This document shows, piece after piece, positions 48,570-56,369 of a stretch of 64,000 nt of DNA. A program made the translations under genes and the position numbers. Position 1 is the first letter of the stretch; each line of letters opens with the position of its first letter. Source of the stretch: Chloroflexota bacterium (GTDB taxonomy: Bacteria; Chloroflexota; Anaerolineae; Anaerolineales; UBA11579); NCBI GenBank assembly GCA_013112575.1, contig JABFGG010000014.1, forward strand, positions 48,081 through 112,080, written 5' to 3'. Under the pieces are notes generated by a model. It was not told the origin of the DNA and did not search any database. It saw only the letters and a program-made list of their open reading frames with translations.

Positions 48570-49199
48570 GTGTCCCAACGTTCTGGAACCCCCTTTAGCA
48601 AACGATTATTCGATCTCACGCTGACGATCATTGGCGGAGCAGTCATTTCGCCGTTCATACTGCTCCTCGCGTTGCTGGTGCGCATCTACCACGGCGCACC
48701 GGTACTGTTCAGGCACACGCGTCCCGGATACAAAGGCAGACCCTTCACGCTCTACAAGTTCCGCACGATGAGCAATGCTAAAGATGAAAGCGGACAGCCC
48801 TTGCCAGATGCAGAACGCCTGACCAAATTCGGCAAATTCCTGCGCTCGACGAGCCTGGATGAGTTACCCGAGCTTTACAACGTGTTGCGCGGGGAGATGA
48901 GCCTGGTGGGGCCAAGGCCACTGTTGATGCAATACCTGGAACGCTACTCGCCAGAGCAAGCCCGCCGCCACGACGTGCTGCCGGGCATTACGGGATGGGC
49001 GCAGGTCAACGGGCGGAATAATGTTTCCTGGGAGGACAAGTTTGCATTGGACGTGTGGTACGTGGACAACTGGTCCTTGTGGCTGGATATCAAGACCCTG
49101 GCTAAAACGCTTTTGAAAGTGGTGGTGCGTGAAGGCATCAACGAACCGGGCAACGCCACGGCGCGGGAGTTCATGGGGACGCAGGGGGAATCTTCCTAA
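48570..49199 (+). CDS. Undecaprenyl-phosphate sugar phosphotransferase
   Basis: The enzyme transfers a sugar-1-phosphate from a nucleotide sugar to a lipid carrier, the first step of surface polysaccharide or glycan synthesis. The 209-residue protein has an N-terminal membrane helix (LFDLTLTIIGGAVISPFILLLALLV), then the family block FTLYKFRTMSNAKDESG, LRSTSLDELPELYNVLRGEMSLVGPRP and LPGITGWAQVNGRNN. It starts at GTG; no Shine-Dalgarno sequence is visible. The short form lacks the extra N-terminal helices of WbaP. It heads a plus-strand run with a transporter and the E1/PglD genes. Confidence 0.92.
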   Translation: MSQRSGTPFSKRLFDLTLTIIGGAVISPFILLLALLVRIYHGAPVLFRHTRPGYKGRPFTLYKFRTMSNAKDESGQPLPDAERLTKFGKFLRSTSLDELPELYNVLRGEMSLVGPRPLLMQYLERYSPEQARRHDVLPGITGWAQVNGRNNVSWEDKFALDVWYVDNWSLWLDIKTLAKTLLKVVVREGINEPGNATAREFMGTQGESS

Positions 49200-49203
49200 A
49201 ACT

Positions 49204-50151
49204 ATGTCGCAAGCCTATTTGCTGGCATCAATCGCAATCGCGCTGTGGAGCACCAGCGCGTATTTGAGCCGCCTGATCGCCATAGAATCCCAATTTGTGC
49301 TGGTCAATCTGATCTTCCTGTTCGCAGCCATTACACTGGGCGTTTACGTATGGATACTGCGAAACAGAAGGAAACTGGAAGTAAAAGCGAACTTCCACAA
49401 GCAGTATCTCTTTTGGGGTGTGTTCGGCTATTTCCTGTATTCATTGCCACTAATCCAAAGTTTGCGAGCCTTTGACAGTGCTTCTGAAGCCACCATCCTT
49501 AACTACACCTGGCCGGTATTTACCGTGCTGTTTTCCAGTGTGCTGTTCCGCAAAATATCCTCCCATAGATCACAAGCCACGAAATGGCTGGAAACGCTGG
49601 CGATTGGACTGGGCTTCCTGGCGGTGGTATTGGTGGCAACTGAGGGTCAATTAGGCAAAGTCGAAATAGCCAACCCGGCGGGCGTATTGTGGGGATTGCT
49701 AAGTGGGCTATCCTACGGCATCTTTTCGGCTTACAGCGCGCGGCTCTCCGAGAACGAACAACCTGTGTTCCTGCTCACCGCCATCCTTATCAGTCTTATT
49801 CTGACAACGCCTATGGGGCTATGGGAATACCAGCAGTTGGGTGGTCTGAGCCGCGGAGGAGTGTTGATCGCCTTTATCCTGGGTGTGTTCATGAGCGGCT
49901 TTGCCTACATCGCCTGGACGGGTGCCCTGCGGCTGGCAAAAGCCCAAAACAAAATCCCCCAGATCGCGGCTCTCATTTTTATGCTACCCCCACTATCGTT
50001 AAGCATTGTTGCCATCTTCTTGAAAGAGAGCAATCTGACCAGGCCATACTTTGCATTATCTGTCGTGCTGGTGATCTTGAGTTCGGTGTTGGCTCAGCGC
50101 GCAGAGGGGATTAGCAAGAGGGTTCAAAAAGCCTTCCCCAGGCAAGTATAA
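49204..50151 (+). CDS. EamA-family (DMT) transporter
   Basis: The 316-residue protein has ten hydrophobic helices in two EamA repeats; typical segments are SIAIALWSTSAYLSRL, FDSASEATILNYTWPVFTVLF, and VLWGLLSGLSYGIFSAYSARL. These carriers export amino acids, nucleotide sugars or metabolites; the substrate is unknown. The ORF track begins upstream inside the sugar transferase gene, but the ATG at 49204 begins at the first helix. It starts five bases after the sugar transferase stop, so the two are co-transcribed. Confidence 0.88.
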   Translation: MSQAYLLASIAIALWSTSAYLSRLIAIESQFVLVNLIFLFAAITLGVYVWILRNRRKLEVKANFHKQYLFWGVFGYFLYSLPLIQSLRAFDSASEATILNYTWPVFTVLFSSVLFRKISSHRSQATKWLETLAIGLGFLAVVLVATEGQLGKVEIANPAGVLWGLLSGLSYGIFSAYSARLSENEQPVFLLTAILISLILTTPMGLWEYQQLGGLSRGGVLIAFILGVFMSGFAYIAWTGALRLAKAQNKIPQIAALIFMLPPLSLSIVAIFLKESNLTRPYFALSVVLVILSSVLAQRAEGISKRVQKAFPRQV

Positions 50152-50161: not shown

Positions 50162-51058
50162 ATGCCCGACAACCAAGCTCTCTACGAAGAACTCTACCGC
50201 ATCCGACGTTTTGAAGAAACTGTGCTGGAACGCTTCAGCAGTGGAGTGTTCTACGGCACGACGCATACCTATATAGGCCAGGAGGCCAACGCTGTGGGAG
50301 TGCTGGCCCACCTGAATGAAGACGACATCGTCTTCAGCAACCATCGCTGCCACGGGCACTTCCTGGCCTACGGCGGCGATATGCGTGGCCTGTTCGCTGA
50401 ACTGATGGGCAAGCCAACTGGCATTGTGGGCGGGCGCGGCGGCTCGCAGCACATCCACTGGAAGGATTTTTACTCCAACGGCATTCTGGGCAGCACGGTG
50501 CCAGCGGCGACGGGTATGGCCCTTGGAGAGAAACTCAAAGGGACTGACGCCATCGCCATCGTATTCATGAGCGATGGCACTTTGGGTGAAGGGGTGGTTT
50601 ACGAGAGCCTCAACATGGCCTCGCTGTGGAATGCCCCCATCCTCTACGTGGTGGAAAACAACGAGATCGCCCAAACTACACCCATCGAGCTTGGGGTGGC
50701 GGGCAGCATTGCCGGGCGCTTTGAGGCTTTTGACATCCCTAGTAAGGAACTGGATACCAGCGATGTAGTAGAGATCCTGCCGGTAGCCGGGGGCCTTATC
50801 GAGGAGATGCGACAACAAAGTCAGCCGCGCGCCTTGATACTGGATACCTGTCGCTTCGGCCCCCACTCGAAAGGGGATGATACACGCGATGAAGCGCTGG
50901 TGGCCCAAATGCGCGCCGAGCGTGACCCGCTCAACATCCATGCCCCCCGTCTGAGTGCGGAAGAGCGCCAAAGTGTTGAAAGTGAAATAGATAGCGCGGT
51001 TGACCGTGCCTTTGAAACTGCGCTGGCTGATCCAGAGGCGGAAGCGACTCTCCCATGA
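50162..51058 (+). CDS. 2-oxoacid dehydrogenase E1 component, alpha subunit
   Basis: This is the thiamine-diphosphate enzyme subunit that decarboxylates a 2-oxo acid. The cofactor motif reads FMSDGTLGEGVVYESLNMAS with the closing ENN, and the active-site His block is VFSNHRCHGHFLAYGGDM. GGRGGSQHIH and GILGSTVPAATGMALGEKL are other family segments. At 298 residues it is shorter than typical PdhA (about 330-370). It is followed by the beta subunit with a four-base overlap and by a lipoyl/acyltransferase fusion. The substrate (pyruvate, branched 2-oxo acid or other) cannot be deduced. Confidence 0.92.
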   Translation: MPDNQALYEELYRIRRFEETVLERFSSGVFYGTTHTYIGQEANAVGVLAHLNEDDIVFSNHRCHGHFLAYGGDMRGLFAELMGKPTGIVGGRGGSQHIHWKDFYSNGILGSTVPAATGMALGEKLKGTDAIAIVFMSDGTLGEGVVYESLNMASLWNAPILYVVENNEIAQTTPIELGVAGSIAGRFEAFDIPSKELDTSDVVEILPVAGGLIEEMRQQSQPRALILDTCRFGPHSKGDDTRDEALVAQMRAERDPLNIHAPRLSAEERQSVESEIDSAVDRAFETALADPEAEATLP

Positions 51059-52071
51059 CCACCGTTCTAGAATCCCTAAACCAGGCCCTGCATGGAGCCA
51101 TGGGTGCCGATGAAAGCGTTTACTTGCTGGGCGAAGATATGCTGGACCCTTATGGCGGGGCCTTTAAGGTCAGCAAAGGTCTATCAACTGCATATCCGGA
51201 GCGTGTGCTAACTACGCCGGTTTCGGAGGCGGGCATGGTGGGCATTGCCGGGGGTATGGCGCTACGCGGCCTGCGGCCCGTGGTGGAGATCATGTTCGGG
51301 GATTTCACTACCCTGATCGCTGACCAGTTGATCAACAGCATCAGTAAGTTCCGCTGGATGTACAACGACCAGGTGACCGTGCCGCTGGTGGTGCGCACTC
51401 CCATGGGCGGGCGGCGCGGTTACGGGCCGACCCACAGCCAGACCATGGAAAAATATTTCCTGGGTGCGCCCGGCTTGAAGGTGGTAGCGCCGTGTGCATT
51501 GGGGAACCCCGGAGAGCTGCTAAAGCAGGTCATCCTGGAAGAAAACGACCCTGTGCTTTTCGTTGAGAATAAATTGCTTTACCTGCAAAAGGTGATGGAT
51601 GAGGCAGCCCTGGCCGAATTCGAAAGCACTGAATATCTGGTCCCTGGCGAATATCCTTCCTACGAACTGACAGTACGCGGGGCACCACCTCCAGTTATCA
51701 CTATCGCAGCTTACGGTTACATGGCCGAGCTGGCCCGCGAGGCTGCCCAACAACTGGCATTTGAACACGAGATCTTTGTGCAGATTTTGATTCCCACCCA
51801 ATTGTCATTCGAGGACAACCTCTTCATCGAGGAAATCCTGCTGCCCAATCTGGAGCGAAGCCAACGCTTATTGACAGTAGAAGAGGGCACGCTGAGCATG
51901 GGCTGGGGAGCGGAAGTAATAACGCGAGCGAGCCATGCACTGGGACCTAAACTGCAAAAAGTGGGGCGTGTGGCAGCAGCAGAGATTCCTATCCCTGCTT
52001 CCGTACCGATGGAAAGAGCCATGCTGCCGCAGGTTGAAGATATTGTGGCAGCAGCGCGTTCAATGGTATAA
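51055..52071 (+). CDS. 2-oxoacid dehydrogenase E1 component, beta subunit
   Basis: The 338-residue beta subunit pairs with E1 alpha to form the alpha2-beta2 decarboxylase. Conserved blocks are VYLLGEDMLDPYGGAFKVSKGL, TPVSEAGMVGIAGGMALRGLRPVVEIMFGDF with the Glu that activates the thiamine ring, TPMGGRRGYGPTHSQTMEK with the active-site His, and LLTVEEGTLSMGWGAEV in the C-terminal domain. It overlaps the alpha gene as ATGA and lies eight bases before the fusion gene, so all three are one transcript. Confidence 0.93.
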   Translation: MTTVLESLNQALHGAMGADESVYLLGEDMLDPYGGAFKVSKGLSTAYPERVLTTPVSEAGMVGIAGGMALRGLRPVVEIMFGDFTTLIADQLINSISKFRWMYNDQVTVPLVVRTPMGGRRGYGPTHSQTMEKYFLGAPGLKVVAPCALGNPGELLKQVILEENDPVLFVENKLLYLQKVMDEAALAEFESTEYLVPGEYPSYELTVRGAPPPVITIAAYGYMAELAREAAQQLAFEHEIFVQILIPTQLSFEDNLFIEEILLPNLERSQRLLTVEEGTLSMGWGAEVITRASHALGPKLQKVGRVAAAEIPIPASVPMERAMLPQVEDIVAAARSMV

Positions 52072-52079
52072 CACCCGCC

Positions 52080-53174
52080 ATGCCTGATGCCAAAGCTGTT
52101 CTAATCCCACTGATCAACCCCAACGAAGCCGAAGCCCTGCTGGCCGGTCTACACGTGCAAGAAGGCGACGAAGTAAAACAAGGCGACCTCCTTTGCACAC
52201 TGGAAACCACCAAGTCAGCTTCCGAGTTGGAAGCTGAGCAGTCCGGTTTTGTGGTGGGACTGGCCCATGCCGAGGGCGAAACGGTCACGGCCGGCGACCT
52301 GTTCTGCTACCTGGCGGATTCGGCGGATTGGGTAGCTCCCGAACCAAAAGAGGTCAAAACCACAAAAAGCAATGATGGCATCCCTGAAGGACTGCGCATC
52401 AGCCAACCGGCGCTCAAGCTGGCGCAAGCGCAAGAAGTGGACCTAAGCAAGCTGCCTACCGGCCCCATGGTAACAGAGGGTATGGTGCGTGGTTTTATGG
52501 CGAACACAGACATCAGCCTGAGAGCAATAACGGAGGGGGATGCCAAACAGGTAATTGTGTATGGGGGCGGGGGGCACGGCAAAGCTTGCATTGAGCTGTT
52601 ACAGGCAGTTGGCAAATATGAGATCGCAGGGGTGGTGGATGATGGCATGTCGAACAAGGATAAAATTTGGGCTTACCCTATACTGGGTGGCGGCGAAGAT
52701 CTGCAAAAACTATATGAGGATGGCACGCATCTGGCGGTCAACGCCGTGGGTGGTATTGGCGACATTAGCAGCCGCATGCAGGTATTCCAAAAGTTAGCCG
52801 AGGCCGGGTTTGCCTTCCCCACGGTGGCCCATCCCAGCGCGGTGGTTGAGGGCAGCGCCGAAATTGAGGCAGGCGTGCAGGTTTTCCCATTGGCTTACAT
52901 AGGCTCGGATGCTGTCATCTGGCAGGGCAGCATCATCAACACCGGCGCGATCATTTCGCATGATTGCAAGATCAGAGATTTCTCGAACATATCCCCAGGG
53001 GCTATTTTGGCCGGGGGCGTGGAAATTGGAGAGCGCAGCCTGATTGGCATGGGAGCAACCATTAACCTGAATGTCAAGGTGGGTACAAAAGCACGCATCG
53101 GCAATGGGGCCACGGTCAAGGCAGATGTGCCCGATGGGGGCATCGTACCAGCCGGGGCTGTGTGGCCTAAATAG
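52080..53174 (+). CDS. Lipoyl + subunit-binding domains fused to a PglD/NeuD-type acyltransferase
   Basis: Residues 5-80 are a lipoyl domain (VQEGDEVKQGDLLCTLETTK, modifiable Lys45, then EAEQSGFV and EGETVTAGDLF). Residues about 105-140 resemble the peripheral subunit-binding domain of E2 (RISQPALKLAQAQEVDLSKL, then TGPMVTEGMV). From about 155 on it is a PglD/NeuD-type sugar O/N-acyltransferase. Its Rossmann part is KQVIVYGGGGHGKACIELL, and a left-handed beta helix follows with the catalytic-type His in AIISHDCKIRDFSNISPGA. The E2 catalytic domain with HxxxDG is absent. It follows the E1 genes directly, which suggests that the lipoyl arm delivers an acyl group to the sugar transferase domain. 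Confidence 0.85.
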   Translation: MPDAKAVLIPLINPNEAEALLAGLHVQEGDEVKQGDLLCTLETTKSASELEAEQSGFVVGLAHAEGETVTAGDLFCYLADSADWVAPEPKEVKTTKSNDGIPEGLRISQPALKLAQAQEVDLSKLPTGPMVTEGMVRGFMANTDISLRAITEGDAKQVIVYGGGGHGKACIELLQAVGKYEIAGVVDDGMSNKDKIWAYPILGGGEDLQKLYEDGTHLAVNAVGGIGDISSRMQVFQKLAEAGFAFPTVAHPSAVVEGSAEIEAGVQVFPLAYIGSDAVIWQGSIINTGAIISHDCKIRDFSNISPGAILAGGVEIGERSLIGMGATINLNVKVGTKARIGNGATVKADVPDGGIVPAGAVWPK

Positions 53175-53264: not shown

Positions 53265-53465
53265 ATGAATCTACATCCACTTTTCGAAGCCCCTCTTTAC
53301 CTGGACCCAGGGTCTGGCAGCTTCATTTTGCAGTTGATCATTGCCGGTGGTCTGGGGGCCCTGTTCATGCTGCGCAGTTACATTACCCGCTTCTTCTCGA
53401 TTTTCAGCCGCAACAAGACGGAAGAAGCCGAAACTGAAGAACTTGAACACTCCGAAAACAGCTAA
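53265..53465 (+). CDS. Small membrane protein with LDPGSGS motif
   Basis: The 66-residue protein has the motif YLDPGSGSFILQLIIAGGLG at the start of a single membrane helix, followed by a basic stretch and an acidic tail (EEAETEELEHSENS). From memory, proteins with LDPG(S/T)GS occur next to methyltransferase and phosphatase-like genes in polysaccharide clusters of environmental bacteria; I know of no function. The stop overlaps the next gene by 23 bases if that gene starts at the TTG at 53443. Confidence 0.65.
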   Translation: MNLHPLFEAPLYLDPGSGSFILQLIIAGGLGALFMLRSYITRFFSIFSRNKTEEAETEELEHSENS

Positions 53466-54834
53466 ACAGCATCCGGCTTCCTTCCGCGACCCCAGCGGTT
53501 TTCTTTTCACCCAGGATGGGGATTTTTACCGCCAGGTAAACCAGAGCTACGCTGCAGATTACGATAGCCTGATGGGGTCTGGCTTATACAATAAGCTGGT
53601 CAAGCAGGGCCGTTTGCTGCCCCACGAAGAAAGCGATGTAGCCGCGGTTAACCCGGAGACTGCTTATAAAGTCATTCACCCGGAACAGTTGGGCTTCATT
53701 GCCTATCCCTATGAGTGGTCTTTCAGCCAATTAAAAGACGCGGCCTTGTGTACCCTGGCCATCCAAAAAGAAGCACTGGCCGTTGGCATGACGCTCAAGG
53801 ATGCCAGCGCCTACAACATTCAGTTTAAGCATACTCAGCCACTATTGCTGGATACACTCTCCTTTGAAGCCTACGAAGAAGGCAAACCTTGGGACGCTTA
53901 CCGCCAGTTCTGCCAGCACTTCCTGGCTCCGCTGGCTTTAATGGCCCACACAGACGTGCGCTTGAGCCAGTTATTGCGCGTCTACATTGACGGTGTTCCG
54001 CTGGACCTCGCCAGCCAACTGCTGCCCTGGCGCACGCGGCTCAATTTTGGCTTGCTTACCCACATCCACCTGCACGCTCGCACCCAAAAAAGTTATGCAG
54101 ATAAAGCTGTTGAGCAAGATACCGGCAGGCAGATGAGCAAAACTGGTTTGTTGGGTCTCATCGACAACCTGGAACGTACCACGCGCACTCTGGAATGGAA
54201 ACCACAGGGTACAGAATGGGGTGATTATTACGACGCCACCAACTACAGCGATACGGCCAGCGAACATAAAGCCGTACTGGTCGGTGAGTATTTGCAGGAT
54301 CTAGAAACGAAAAGTGTATGGGACCTGGGGGCCAATACAGGCCGTTTCAGTCGCATCGCCAGCGAGATAGGGGTTGCCACTCTTGCCTTTGATATCGACC
54401 CGGCAGCAGTAGAACAAAACTACAGGCAGGCCCGCAAGAAGAAAGAAAAGAACTTGCTGCCCTTAGTATTGGACCTGACCAACCCCAGCCCTGCCTTAGG
54501 CTGGCAGCATGAAGAACGGCAGTCCCTGTTAGAACGCGGCCCGGCAGACGCTGTATTAGCCCTGGCTCTCATCCACCATCTGGCAATTTCCAACAATGTG
54601 CCGCTGCAACATTTGGCGCGTTTCTTTGCAGAAGCCGGGGAATGGCTCATCATTGAATTCGTACCCAAGAGCGACTCACAGGTCAAGCGCTTGCTGCAAA
54701 CCCGCAAAGACATCTTCCCTGATTACAATCTGGACCGCTTCCAGGAAATCTTCGCCGAGCACTTCACGATCCACCGTAAGGAAGCTATCCAGGACTCTGA
54801 GCGCCATTTGTTCCTGATGCAACGCAAGGATTAA
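53443..54834 (+). CDS. Class I SAM-dependent methyltransferase, NoeA-like
   Basis: The C-terminal half has the SAM-binding core (SVWDLGANTGRFSRIASEIG, then TLAFDIDPAAVEQNY and ADAVLALALIHHLAIS). The N-terminal about 230 residues form a separate domain with RDPSGFLFTQDGDFYRQVN, then GFIAYPYEWSFSQLKDAALC, as in proteins related to NoeA of rhizobia. The ORF track starts far upstream in an unlikely reading; the TTG at 53443 is the last good start before the conserved FRDPSGFL. The stop overlaps the next ATG by one base (TAATG). It probably methylates a surface glycan or its lipid-linked precursor. Confidence 0.8.
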   Translation: MNTPKTAKQHPASFRDPSGFLFTQDGDFYRQVNQSYAADYDSLMGSGLYNKLVKQGRLLPHEESDVAAVNPETAYKVIHPEQLGFIAYPYEWSFSQLKDAALCTLAIQKEALAVGMTLKDASAYNIQFKHTQPLLLDTLSFEAYEEGKPWDAYRQFCQHFLAPLALMAHTDVRLSQLLRVYIDGVPLDLASQLLPWRTRLNFGLLTHIHLHARTQKSYADKAVEQDTGRQMSKTGLLGLIDNLERTTRTLEWKPQGTEWGDYYDATNYSDTASEHKAVLVGEYLQDLETKSVWDLGANTGRFSRIASEIGVATLAFDIDPAAVEQNYRQARKKKEKNLLPLVLDLTNPSPALGWQHEERQSLLERGPADAVLALALIHHLAISNNVPLQHLARFFAEAGEWLIIEFVPKSDSQVKRLLQTRKDIFPDYNLDRFQEIFAEHFTIHRKEAIQDSERHLFLMQRKD

Positions 54835-56369
54835 TGGCCTGGCTCAAACGCGCCCCCCTGCACCCATTCTTATTGGGTAGTTATTCATTATTAAGTTTGC
54901 TAGCATTTAACGTGGCCGAAGCGCGTTTTTCAGATGGCTGGCGCTCGCTGGCGTTGACCCTCTTTATCTGTGCCGCCCTTTTGCTGCTGGCACAACTGTT
55001 TACAAGGAACTGGCAACGTTCTGCTTTAGCTGCCAGCTTTGTCCTGATCCTGTTCTTCTCCTACGGGCATATCTACAATTTCCTTAAGCAAATTGAGTTG
55101 TTCGGAACAGTAATAGGACGCCACCGCTGGATGCTGCCGGCGTGGGGAGTCTTGCTGGTGGTGGGATTGTGGTGGCTCCTGGGGCGAGTCAAGCAGCCTG
55201 AGCGCAGCACCTACACCCTCAATGTTATCGGTGTAATCGCAGTGGCCCTGCCCATCATCCAGCTAATCACTGCCCAATTCAACCAGGCCGCAAATCCCGT
55301 CAACACACAGACGAATGGCAACCTGATGGAAAGCCAGCAGGTGCAGCGTGACGTGTACTACATCATCATGGATGCCTATTCGCGGGATGACACTTTGCTG
55401 GATTTCTTTGGTTACGACAATAGTTCATTTCTCAACAGCCTGGATGAGATGGGATTTTATGTAGCACAATGCAGCCGCAGCAACTATCCAAAAACGCGCT
55501 TATCCCTCACTTCTTCACTGAATATGGATTACCTGCCCGAATTGGGCATTACAGAAAATGACAAGACGGAGTTGGCCGGACGACTGATCCGTCTGAGCAA
55601 GGTGCGTCGCTTATTGGAAGAGGCAGGCTACAGCACTTACGCCTTCGAAACCACTTTCTTTTGGACAGAGTGGGAAGATGTGGACGTGTATCTCTCCCGA
55701 AATTCAGGGCAGTTCGGTACTTTCTCGGCTTTGCAAACCTTCGGGCAGTTGACCGAGTTCGAGGCCACCTACCTGCGCACGACCACAGTGTTGGCGATGA
55801 TCGACCTGGAGCCTTTGCTGGCGCAAAATGTGGTCTCCTTTATTAGCGAATCCCCGCGCCAGCAGCATTACGACCTGGTAAGCTACACACTGGATACCCT
55901 GCCGACCCTGGCAGAGCTACCCGGCCCCAAGTTCGTCTTTGCACACGTGATTGCCCCACATCCGCCTTACGTGTTTGATGAAACAGGCACATTCGTACCC
56001 AACGTGGAAGATGGCAGCTACAACGCTGAACTTGAGTACTTGAACATGCGCCTTGAGGATATTCTGCAAGAGATCATCAGTACCTCGGAAGTTGAACCGA
56101 TCATCATCCTGCAAGGGGACCATGCCGGGCCCCGGACACAGGAACTGCCCGAACGACTCAATATCCTCAACGCCTACTACTTCCCCGATGGCGGGGATGC
56201 GCAACTGTACCCCTCTATATCCCCGGTCAACAGTTTTCGGTTAGTGTTCGATACTTATTTTGATAGTGACTTCGGATTAATCGAGGATATCAACTACCAT
56301 TCCATTTCCGAGGATTTCTTCGACTTCACAATCTACCCAGAAACGCGCTCAGGCTGCGAAAGCCAATAA
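54834..56369 (+). CDS. Membrane-anchored sulfatase/alkaline-phosphatase-like protein
   Basis: The first about 150 residues form four or five hydrophobic helices. The rest is an extracytoplasmic domain of the alkaline phosphatase superfamily. Metal-binding motifs are RDVYYIIMDAYSRDDTLLDF, VFAHVIAPHPPYVFDETG and IIILQGDHAGPRTQELPE. The nucleophile region is around NYPKTRLSLTSSLNMDY, with Thr or Ser as candidates. Proteins with this layout often transfer phospho-groups to lipids or glycans at the surface. It overlaps the methyltransferase by one base, which points to a joint role. Confidence 0.82.
   Translation: MAWLKRAPLHPFLLGSYSLLSLLAFNVAEARFSDGWRSLALTLFICAALLLLAQLFTRNWQRSALAASFVLILFFSYGHIYNFLKQIELFGTVIGRHRWMLPAWGVLLVVGLWWLLGRVKQPERSTYTLNVIGVIAVALPIIQLITAQFNQAANPVNTQTNGNLMESQQVQRDVYYIIMDAYSRDDTLLDFFGYDNSSFLNSLDEMGFYVAQCSRSNYPKTRLSLTSSLNMDYLPELGITENDKTELAGRLIRLSKVRRLLEEAGYSTYAFETTFFWTEWEDVDVYLSRNSGQFGTFSALQTFGQLTEFEATYLRTTTVLAMIDLEPLLAQNVVSFISESPRQQHYDLVSYTLDTLPTLAELPGPKFVFAHVIAPHPPYVFDETGTFVPNVEDGSYNAELEYLNMRLEDILQEIISTSEVEPIIILQGDHAGPRTQELPERLNILNAYYFPDGGDAQLYPSISPVNSFRLVFDTYFDSDFGLIEDINYHSISEDFFDFTIYPETRSGCESQ

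Follow-up and report, generated by a model that had tools for sequence, protein, structure and literature searches.

A gene triplet encoding the two subunits of a thiamine diphosphate (ThDP)-dependent E1 enzyme and a fusion of a lipoyl domain with a NeuD/PglD-type sugar acyltransferase was identified in a Chloroflexota bacterium (assembly GCA_013112575.1). The triplet lies at positions 50162-53174 of the window, that is, of the whole 64,000-nucleotide stretch of contig JABFGG010000014.1 that was analysed. All three genes and the features within them are on the + strand and are tightly packed, with a 4-bp overlap followed by an 8-bp gap. The first gene (50162..51058) encodes a pyruvate dehydrogenase (PDH)-type, ThDP-dependent E1 alpha of 298 amino acids (aa) (Pfam E1_dh, 1.1e-52), whose closest solved structure is human PDH E1 alpha (E 1.8e-38). 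Its ThDP/Mg residues D138 and N167 and the residues H61, R62 and H64 are at least 97% conserved among 53 sequences. Residues 137-139 (50570-50578) read SDG here, at a place where the ThDP motif is GDG in at least 97% of the relatives. The second gene (51055..52071) encodes E1 beta, a protein of 338 aa (Transket_pyr, 1.8e-29; Transketolase_C, 1.1e-9) that has a PDH-type E1 beta as its closest solved match (E 2e-41) and residues E58 and H127 at least 97% conserved among 61 sequences. An earlier sequence-only reading had described these two genes as a complete ThDP E1, which the open reading frames (ORFs), the Pfam domains and the conserved ThDP residues confirm.

The third gene (52080..53174) encodes a lipoyl, peripheral-subunit-binding-like (PSBD-like) and NeuD/PglD fusion of 364 aa, proposed to be an acyl-lipoyl-dependent sugar N-acyltransferase. 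The lipoyl domain occupies residues 4-79 (52089..52316; Biotin_lipoyl 3.9e-13 at residues 15-77). It is modelled as a beta barrel with a predicted local distance difference test score (pLDDT) of 84-97 in blocks of ten, and Foldseek matched it to the human PDH L2 lipoyl domain 3crk_C (TMt 0.81, root-mean-square deviation 1.5). The expected lipoylation site, Lys45 (52212..52214), lies in the motif ETTK(S/A), which is LETTKSA here, and is Lys in all 99 fusions; Glu42 and Thr44 are equally invariant. Biotin domains carry the motif (A/V)MKM, and a biotin domain in place of the lipoyl domain was judged less likely because of this difference. The PSBD-like domain (residues 104-144, 52389..52511), in which Arg106 and Thr132 are invariant in 99/99 fusions, was detected with hhalign by profile-to-profile comparison with the E2 PSBDs of the same genome (89% probability, E 2.2e-6) and forms two helices in the predicted model. 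Pfam PF02817 has no match in the window protein and matches one of 26 members (E 0.0029), the other 25 being below detection. The subunit-binding-like domain of the earlier reading is supported by the hhalign match and the helices but missed by the Pfam model.

The PglD N-terminal nucleotide-sugar-binding domain (residues 157-239, 52548..52796; PglD_N 2.8e-14) retains the sugar-binding residues D187, D188 and H166 in the fusions, and D187/D188, the uridine-contact positions mapped from Pcryo_0637 (PMC8040287), are present in 99/99. The left-handed beta-helix catalytic domain (residues 250-362, 52827..53165; Hexapep 3e-12) contains the catalytic His294 of the SHDCK motif (52959-52961; His in 98/99 fusions) and the oxyanion Gly312 (53013-53015; Gly in 99/99), which corresponds to Gly160 of Pcryo_0637. 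The fusion scores 188.9 bits on the NCBIfam NeuD model TIGR03570, above the curated cut-off of 160.8. The best solved relative of the beta-helix domain is perosamine N-acetyltransferase PerB (1.5e-29), with PglB/PglD enzymes also close, and Foldseek with the C-terminal half of the fusion returned PerB/PglB/PglD. In an AlphaFold2 monomer model built from 26 sequences the lipoyl barrel, the two PSBD-like helices and the PglD_N domain are confident; the beta helix is weaker (pLDDT about 50-80), which is to be expected when an obligate trimer is modelled as a monomer. The lipoyl domain with Lys45, the PglD/NeuD-type catalytic domain with its SHDCK histidine and the beta helix had all been named beforehand and are upheld. 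The domain make-up and the intact catalytic residues are, at the level of sequence, established. The E2 catalytic domain (PF00198, HxxxDG) is absent from the fusion, as had been stated, and the PF00198 matches of the genome lie only on contigs C4, C6, C8 and C13. No E3 gene was found within the locus. No phosphopantetheine carrier domain (acyl carrier protein or T domain) was found in the fusion or in the scanned adjacent window genes, or among the recurrent neighbours of the relatives, whose representatives were read by eye and scanned in part.

An alignment of 12 fusions, searched against 84,980 species genomes, returned 152 relatives. The best 80 of these all belong to Chloroflexota records, whose names are nearly always Anaerolineae or a taxon within it. 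Within the order, the full-length fusion is present in 75 of 261 genomes of at least 90% completeness, and PglC-like and DegT genes recur as its neighbours. No fusion was found outside the order among 111 sampled genomes of the phylum, and a plasmid collection gave plain NeuD matches alone, with no full-length fusion. E1 beta is located upstream of the fusion in all 73 scan loci having at least 1.3 kb of upstream DNA, and E1 alpha in 62 of the 64 having at least 2.5 kb; both tallies include genes missed by the ORF picker and rescued by tblastn. Chance juxtaposition and assembly artefact were ruled out by the recurrence of the triplet across many genera. Judged from this comparison, the triplet is a real, conserved system among uncultured Chloroflexota, with its conservation and gene order established.

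Several variants of the triplet were observed. In loci L032 (7163-9265), L071, L074, L095, L096, L113, L118, L119 and L121, the lipoyl-NeuD gene is preceded by one ORF of about 650-700 aa that joins E1 alpha and E1 beta; such a fused ORF is uncommon for E1 enzymes of the alpha/beta type. A second lineage (L073, L080, L085, L097, L102 and others) has the triplet inside a stable, housekeeping-like block composed of a short-chain dehydrogenase/reductase (SDR), methylpurine-DNA glycosylase (MPG), the triplet, bactofilin, CPBP protease, ProS and DegT, in this order. The triplet of L148 (G120:C11:530000-546000) is divergent, its E1 alpha, E1 beta and lipoyl-NeuD proteins being 50%, 46% and about 26-31% identical, respectively. 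This fusion retains ETTKSTF, is 40% identical in the lipoyl part and 26% in the NeuD part, and may represent a deep branch or an independent fusion.

A natural control is provided by 33 genomes in which the homologue (about 45-55% identical) begins at the NeuD domain and lacks the lipoyl and binding domains. E1 of the triplet class, for which E1 alpha was required to be at least 50% identical and which is well apart from canonical E1 alpha (about 40% or below), was found in 74 of the 75 fusion genomes and in none of these 33 arm-less genomes (Fisher 5.5e-27, a description rather than a probability, the genomes being related and their relatedness uncorrected). The arm-less gene keeps the gene order of the locus, with E1 alpha and beta absent. 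The arm-less orders are SDR-MPG-NeuD (L150, L165), SDR-MPG-NeuD-bactofilin-CPBP-DegT (L153), sugar transferase (SugTr)-NeuD-DegT (L158) and SugTr-NeuD (L164), whereas the armed orders are SDR-MPG-E1a-E1b-fusion-bactofilin-CPBP-ProS-DegT and SugTr-E1a-E1b-fusion-DegT. A maximum-likelihood tree of the NeuD domains calls for no fewer than three gains or losses of the arm, and a single change was obtained in 0/200 bootstrap trees; the loss occurred at least two or three times. L158 and L165 nest among the armed forms in this tree; the genome of L165 (G129) belongs to genus g63, whose other seven sampled members carry the fusion.

Lipoate synthase LipA is encoded in 72 of the 75 fusion genomes and in 19 of the 33 arm-less genomes, being missing in the remaining 14. 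Most or all sampled near-complete genomes of genera g38, g49 and g52 (family f13) have no true LipA match, with radical-SAM background alone, and lipoate synthesis seems to have been lost several times within the order. The earlier reading had allowed that the lipoyl part might prove a non-lipoylated remnant or that Lys45 might vary; Lys in 99/99 fusions and the LipA counts argue against both. The joint loss of E1 and arm is established and, together with the LipA pattern, indicates that the E1 pair and the arm are gained and lost as one module and that the arm is retained almost exclusively in genomes able to make lipoate. Such a pattern would be predicted for a lipoylated arm that is loaded by E1 and serves the acyltransferase as its acyl donor.

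One position of the beta helix discriminates between the two forms. Residue 321 (53040..53042, + strand; Leu in the window protein) is Leu in 99/99 armed proteins and Gln (31) or Arg (1) in 32/32 arm-less proteins, including the separately placed L158, L164 and L165. From the hexapeptide register, we infer that it faces outward, half a coil from Gly312, and it might form part of the wall of the donor groove, contributed by the adjacent subunit of the trimer. In the Pcryo_0637-type trimer the donor is bound between subunits (PMC8040287).

Genes of amino-sugar metabolism accompany the triplet. A PglC-like phosphoglycosyl transferase gene (48570..49199, + strand) lies upstream of it, and its product matches over its full length (E 6.5e-59) its best solved relative, 8e37, which is PglC, the N,N'-diacetylbacillosaminyl-1-phosphate transferase. 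Among 81 loci examined for neighbours, the PglC-like family occurs near the triplet in 35, on the same strand and at a median of 2 kb upstream of the fusion, and a DegT aminotransferase closest to perosamine synthase occurs in 37, directly downstream of the fusion in 17. The window genome contains an unlinked ortholog (68-70%) of the DegT aminotransferase (L143 = G000:C4:131480) and an open frame of 688 aa that includes a PglF/CapD-type dehydratase domain. Because of the PglC-like transferase, the perosamine-synthase-like DegT and the PglF/CapD-type frame, the acceptor is likely to be a nucleoside diphosphate (NDP)-4-amino-6-deoxysugar bound for a lipid-linked surface glycan. The PglC- and DegT-type partners thus support the amino-sugar acceptor that had been suggested before.

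The earlier statement that E3 is lacking holds for the locus only, because the genome has a strong E3 elsewhere (G000:C4:271166; TIGR01350, 569.8 bits, above the curated cut-off). E3 also scores above the curated cut-off in most of 60 relatives, and its gene accompanies canonical E1/E2 operons in the window genome and in most of these relatives. Turnover of the acyl-dihydrolipoyl group requires re-oxidation. Strictly E3-free chemistry was ruled out because of the E3 encoded elsewhere in the window genome and in most relatives, and the non-redox variant considered earlier is weak for these reasons.

The invariant Lys45, the conserved triplet and the joint loss at conserved gene order support the earlier suggestion that E1, the lipoyl arm and the sugar acyltransferase are functionally coupled, which is very probable. 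The triplet probably constitutes a 2-oxo-acid-driven amino-sugar N-acyltransferase complex in which the beta-helix enzyme stands in place of the E2 core. In the first step, E1 alpha/beta would decarboxylate a 2-oxo acid on ThDP (pyruvate is the default guess) and reductively acylate the lipoyl group expected on Lys45 of the fusion. In the second step, the swinging arm would bring the acyl thioester into the active site between the subunits of the beta-helix trimer, where His294 would serve as the base and the Gly312 amide as the oxyanion hole. The acceptor amine, presented by the NDP-4-amino-6-deoxysugar held by the PglD_N domain, would then attack the thioester with no involvement of coenzyme A (CoA). 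In the third step, the dihydrolipoyl arm would be re-oxidised by the shared E3, recruited through the PSBD-like domain, and in the fourth the PglC-like enzyme would load the N-acyl sugar-1-phosphate onto a lipid carrier. We infer that the sugar amine is likely to receive the acyl group directly from acyl-dihydrolipoyl, without a CoA step, and the chances that the usual acyl group is acetyl from pyruvate are about even. On balance, although with some reserve, the triplet would represent a novel type of 2-oxo acid dehydrogenase-like complex, with a trimeric beta-helix core and acyl-dihydrolipoyl-lysine as the direct donor to a nucleotide-linked amino sugar.

The chief rival explanations are a relay through CoA by one of the E2 proteins of the genome and a regulatory or docking role of the lipoyl domain. 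In the relay, E1 and the arm would act as a local acyl source, a canonical E2 encoded elsewhere would pass the acyl group to CoA, and the NeuD domain would use acyl-CoA as PglD does. The window genome encodes three full-length E2 proteins outside the locus, the solved members of the family of the NeuD domain use acetyl-CoA, and the arm-less relatives presumably use CoA. However, a foreign E2 core would have to work with a lipoyl domain that is attached to a different trimer, and with free acyl-CoA as the donor neither the fixed arm and its exact joint loss with E1 nor the switch from Leu321 to Gln/Arg would be expected; the relay is considered unlikely. Alternatively, the lipoyl domain may serve for docking or regulation or as an acyl sink, with NeuD using acetyl-CoA and the operon reporting the supply of 2-oxo acid to surface-sugar synthesis. 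Arm-less orthologs at the same locus and NeuD catalytic residues identical to those of CoA-using enzymes would agree with such a role, which is nevertheless improbable, since a sensor would have no need of the E1 catalytic residues and the lipoyl lysine that are retained, and LipA is kept alongside the fusion. That the NeuD-like trimer substitutes for the E2 core as an acyl-lipoyl:CoA transferase, supplying acyl-CoA to metabolism with an accidental link to sugars, would suit the place of the gene in the operon and the binding of CoA by beta-helix enzymes of the family (PMC8040287) but is very improbable in view of the retained PglD_N residues D187/D188/H166, the PglC-like and DegT neighbours and the absence of the E2 HxxxDG domain.

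Several points weigh against direct transfer from the arm to the sugar. The arm-less relatives keep the acyltransferase domain, which can evidently function with a different donor, and acyl-CoA might still serve the fused form. Against the grouping of all arm-less forms in one clade the approximately unbiased (AU) test gives a borderline result (p 0.065), three fusion genomes of about 91-94% completeness have no LipA, and G028 is the sole near-complete genome in which an intact full-length fusion (L149, G028:C343) was found with no E1 of the triplet class detected. The L149 fusion is either an orphan gene or lies at an assembly gap, the assembly consisting of 820 contigs. The divergent G120 fusion carries Arg at position 321, the placement of this residue in the donor groove derives solely from repeat geometry, and the DegT aminotransferase is unlinked to the triplet in the window genome. 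CoA-using NeuD members have a C-terminal GxPA(R/K) turn, the Pro of which turns cis upon CoA binding. The sequence AGxxWP replaces this turn in the fused and arm-less forms, whereas GxPA is present in the other NeuDs examined. The absence of GxPA(R/K) was dropped as proof of CoA independence because the arm-less relatives are also without it, and the turn is uninformative on the donor because it is absent from both forms alike. To our knowledge, no biochemistry is known for the lipoyl-NeuD family.

The fusion shares with the PglD/NeuD/PerB enzymes (TIGR03570; Campylobacter jejuni PglD, Caulobacter PerB and Psychrobacter Pcryo_0637) the PglD_N domain, the beta helix, the catalytic His, the oxyanion Gly and the uridine-contact Asp pair, as well as the neighbouring PglC-like transferase and DegT aminotransferase. 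It differs from them in the added N-terminal lipoyl and PSBD-like domains, the dedicated E1 alpha/beta, the AGxxWP C-terminus in place of GxPA(R/K) and a donor that would be acyl-lipoyl instead of acetyl-CoA. Lipoyl arms are known to deliver their acyl groups to CoA or, in rare cases, to carrier proteins by means of an E2-type transferase. With the 2-oxo acid dehydrogenase complexes (PDH, branched-chain 2-oxo acid dehydrogenase and acetoin dehydrogenase) the triplet shares E1 alpha/beta, a lipoyl domain with an invariant Lys, a putative PSBD-like domain and a genomic E3. The E2 CAT-fold domain is absent, however, a beta-helix sugar acyltransferase stands in its position, and the product would be an N-acyl sugar instead of acyl-CoA. 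The triplet is not filed as a 2-oxo acid dehydrogenase complex because the E2 catalytic domain, a defining feature, is absent, yet it probably operates in the same way as far as the acyl-lipoyl step.

The view that known complexes hand the acyl group to CoA was too strict, as clusters of the pepteridine and quinocarcin type have been proposed to load carrier proteins. The pepteridine cluster (plu2792-2799) encodes an E1-like enzyme and an E2-like-T-C fusion, for which a phosphopantetheine carrier, a C domain and a pterin acceptor have been proposed (PMC5384830). As proposed for the triplet, E1 and a lipoyl-type protein turn a 2-oxo acid into the amide of a free amine, with no E3 in the cluster; the triplet has neither the E2-like domain nor the phosphopantetheine carrier and C domain, and it points to a sugar instead of a pterin. 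QncN/QncL/QncM (quinocarcin) and SclQ1-4 (scleric acid) likewise comprise a ThDP enzyme pair and a lipoyl-bearing protein, here with an acyltransferase domain, and deliver the acyl group to a non-CoA acceptor. In both cases the substrate is a ketose phosphate and the acceptor an acyl carrier protein, and neither concerns a sugar acceptor (PMC6335953). A full-text search of the openly licensed PMC literature gave no description of a lipoyl-NeuD protein. The diversion of PDH-like enzymes to carrier proteins is already known; the combination of a lipoyl arm with a sugar NeuD acyltransferase appears to be new, and would be more so if direct transfer were shown. If true, the proposal would represent a new use of lipoic acid, tying central carbon metabolism directly to the acylation of surface glycans, and a route from 2-oxo acid to amide that is free of both CoA and carrier protein. 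Such a route could supply acyl groups that are scarce as CoA thioesters (glycolyl, formyl or branched). The matched fused and arm-less orthologs and the single co-switching position would make donor choice in hexapeptide acyltransferases testable, and the three-gene system is widespread and clonable.

Other genes are present around the triplet. An EamA-family transporter (49129..50151, + strand; EamA 3.7e-15) is encoded between the PglC-like gene and E1 alpha, and a similar membrane protein of about 300 aa (cluster c55) stands between the sugar transferase and E1 in L065, L067 and L095. Downstream of the fusion, positions 53341-54834 encode a 497-aa protein with a C-terminal methyltransferase domain; L049 and L057 have related genes downstream of their fusions. 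The methyltransferase-domain gene is followed by a gene (54834-56369) for a membrane protein with a sulfatase/phosphatase-type domain. These two proteins could modify or transfer the glycan.

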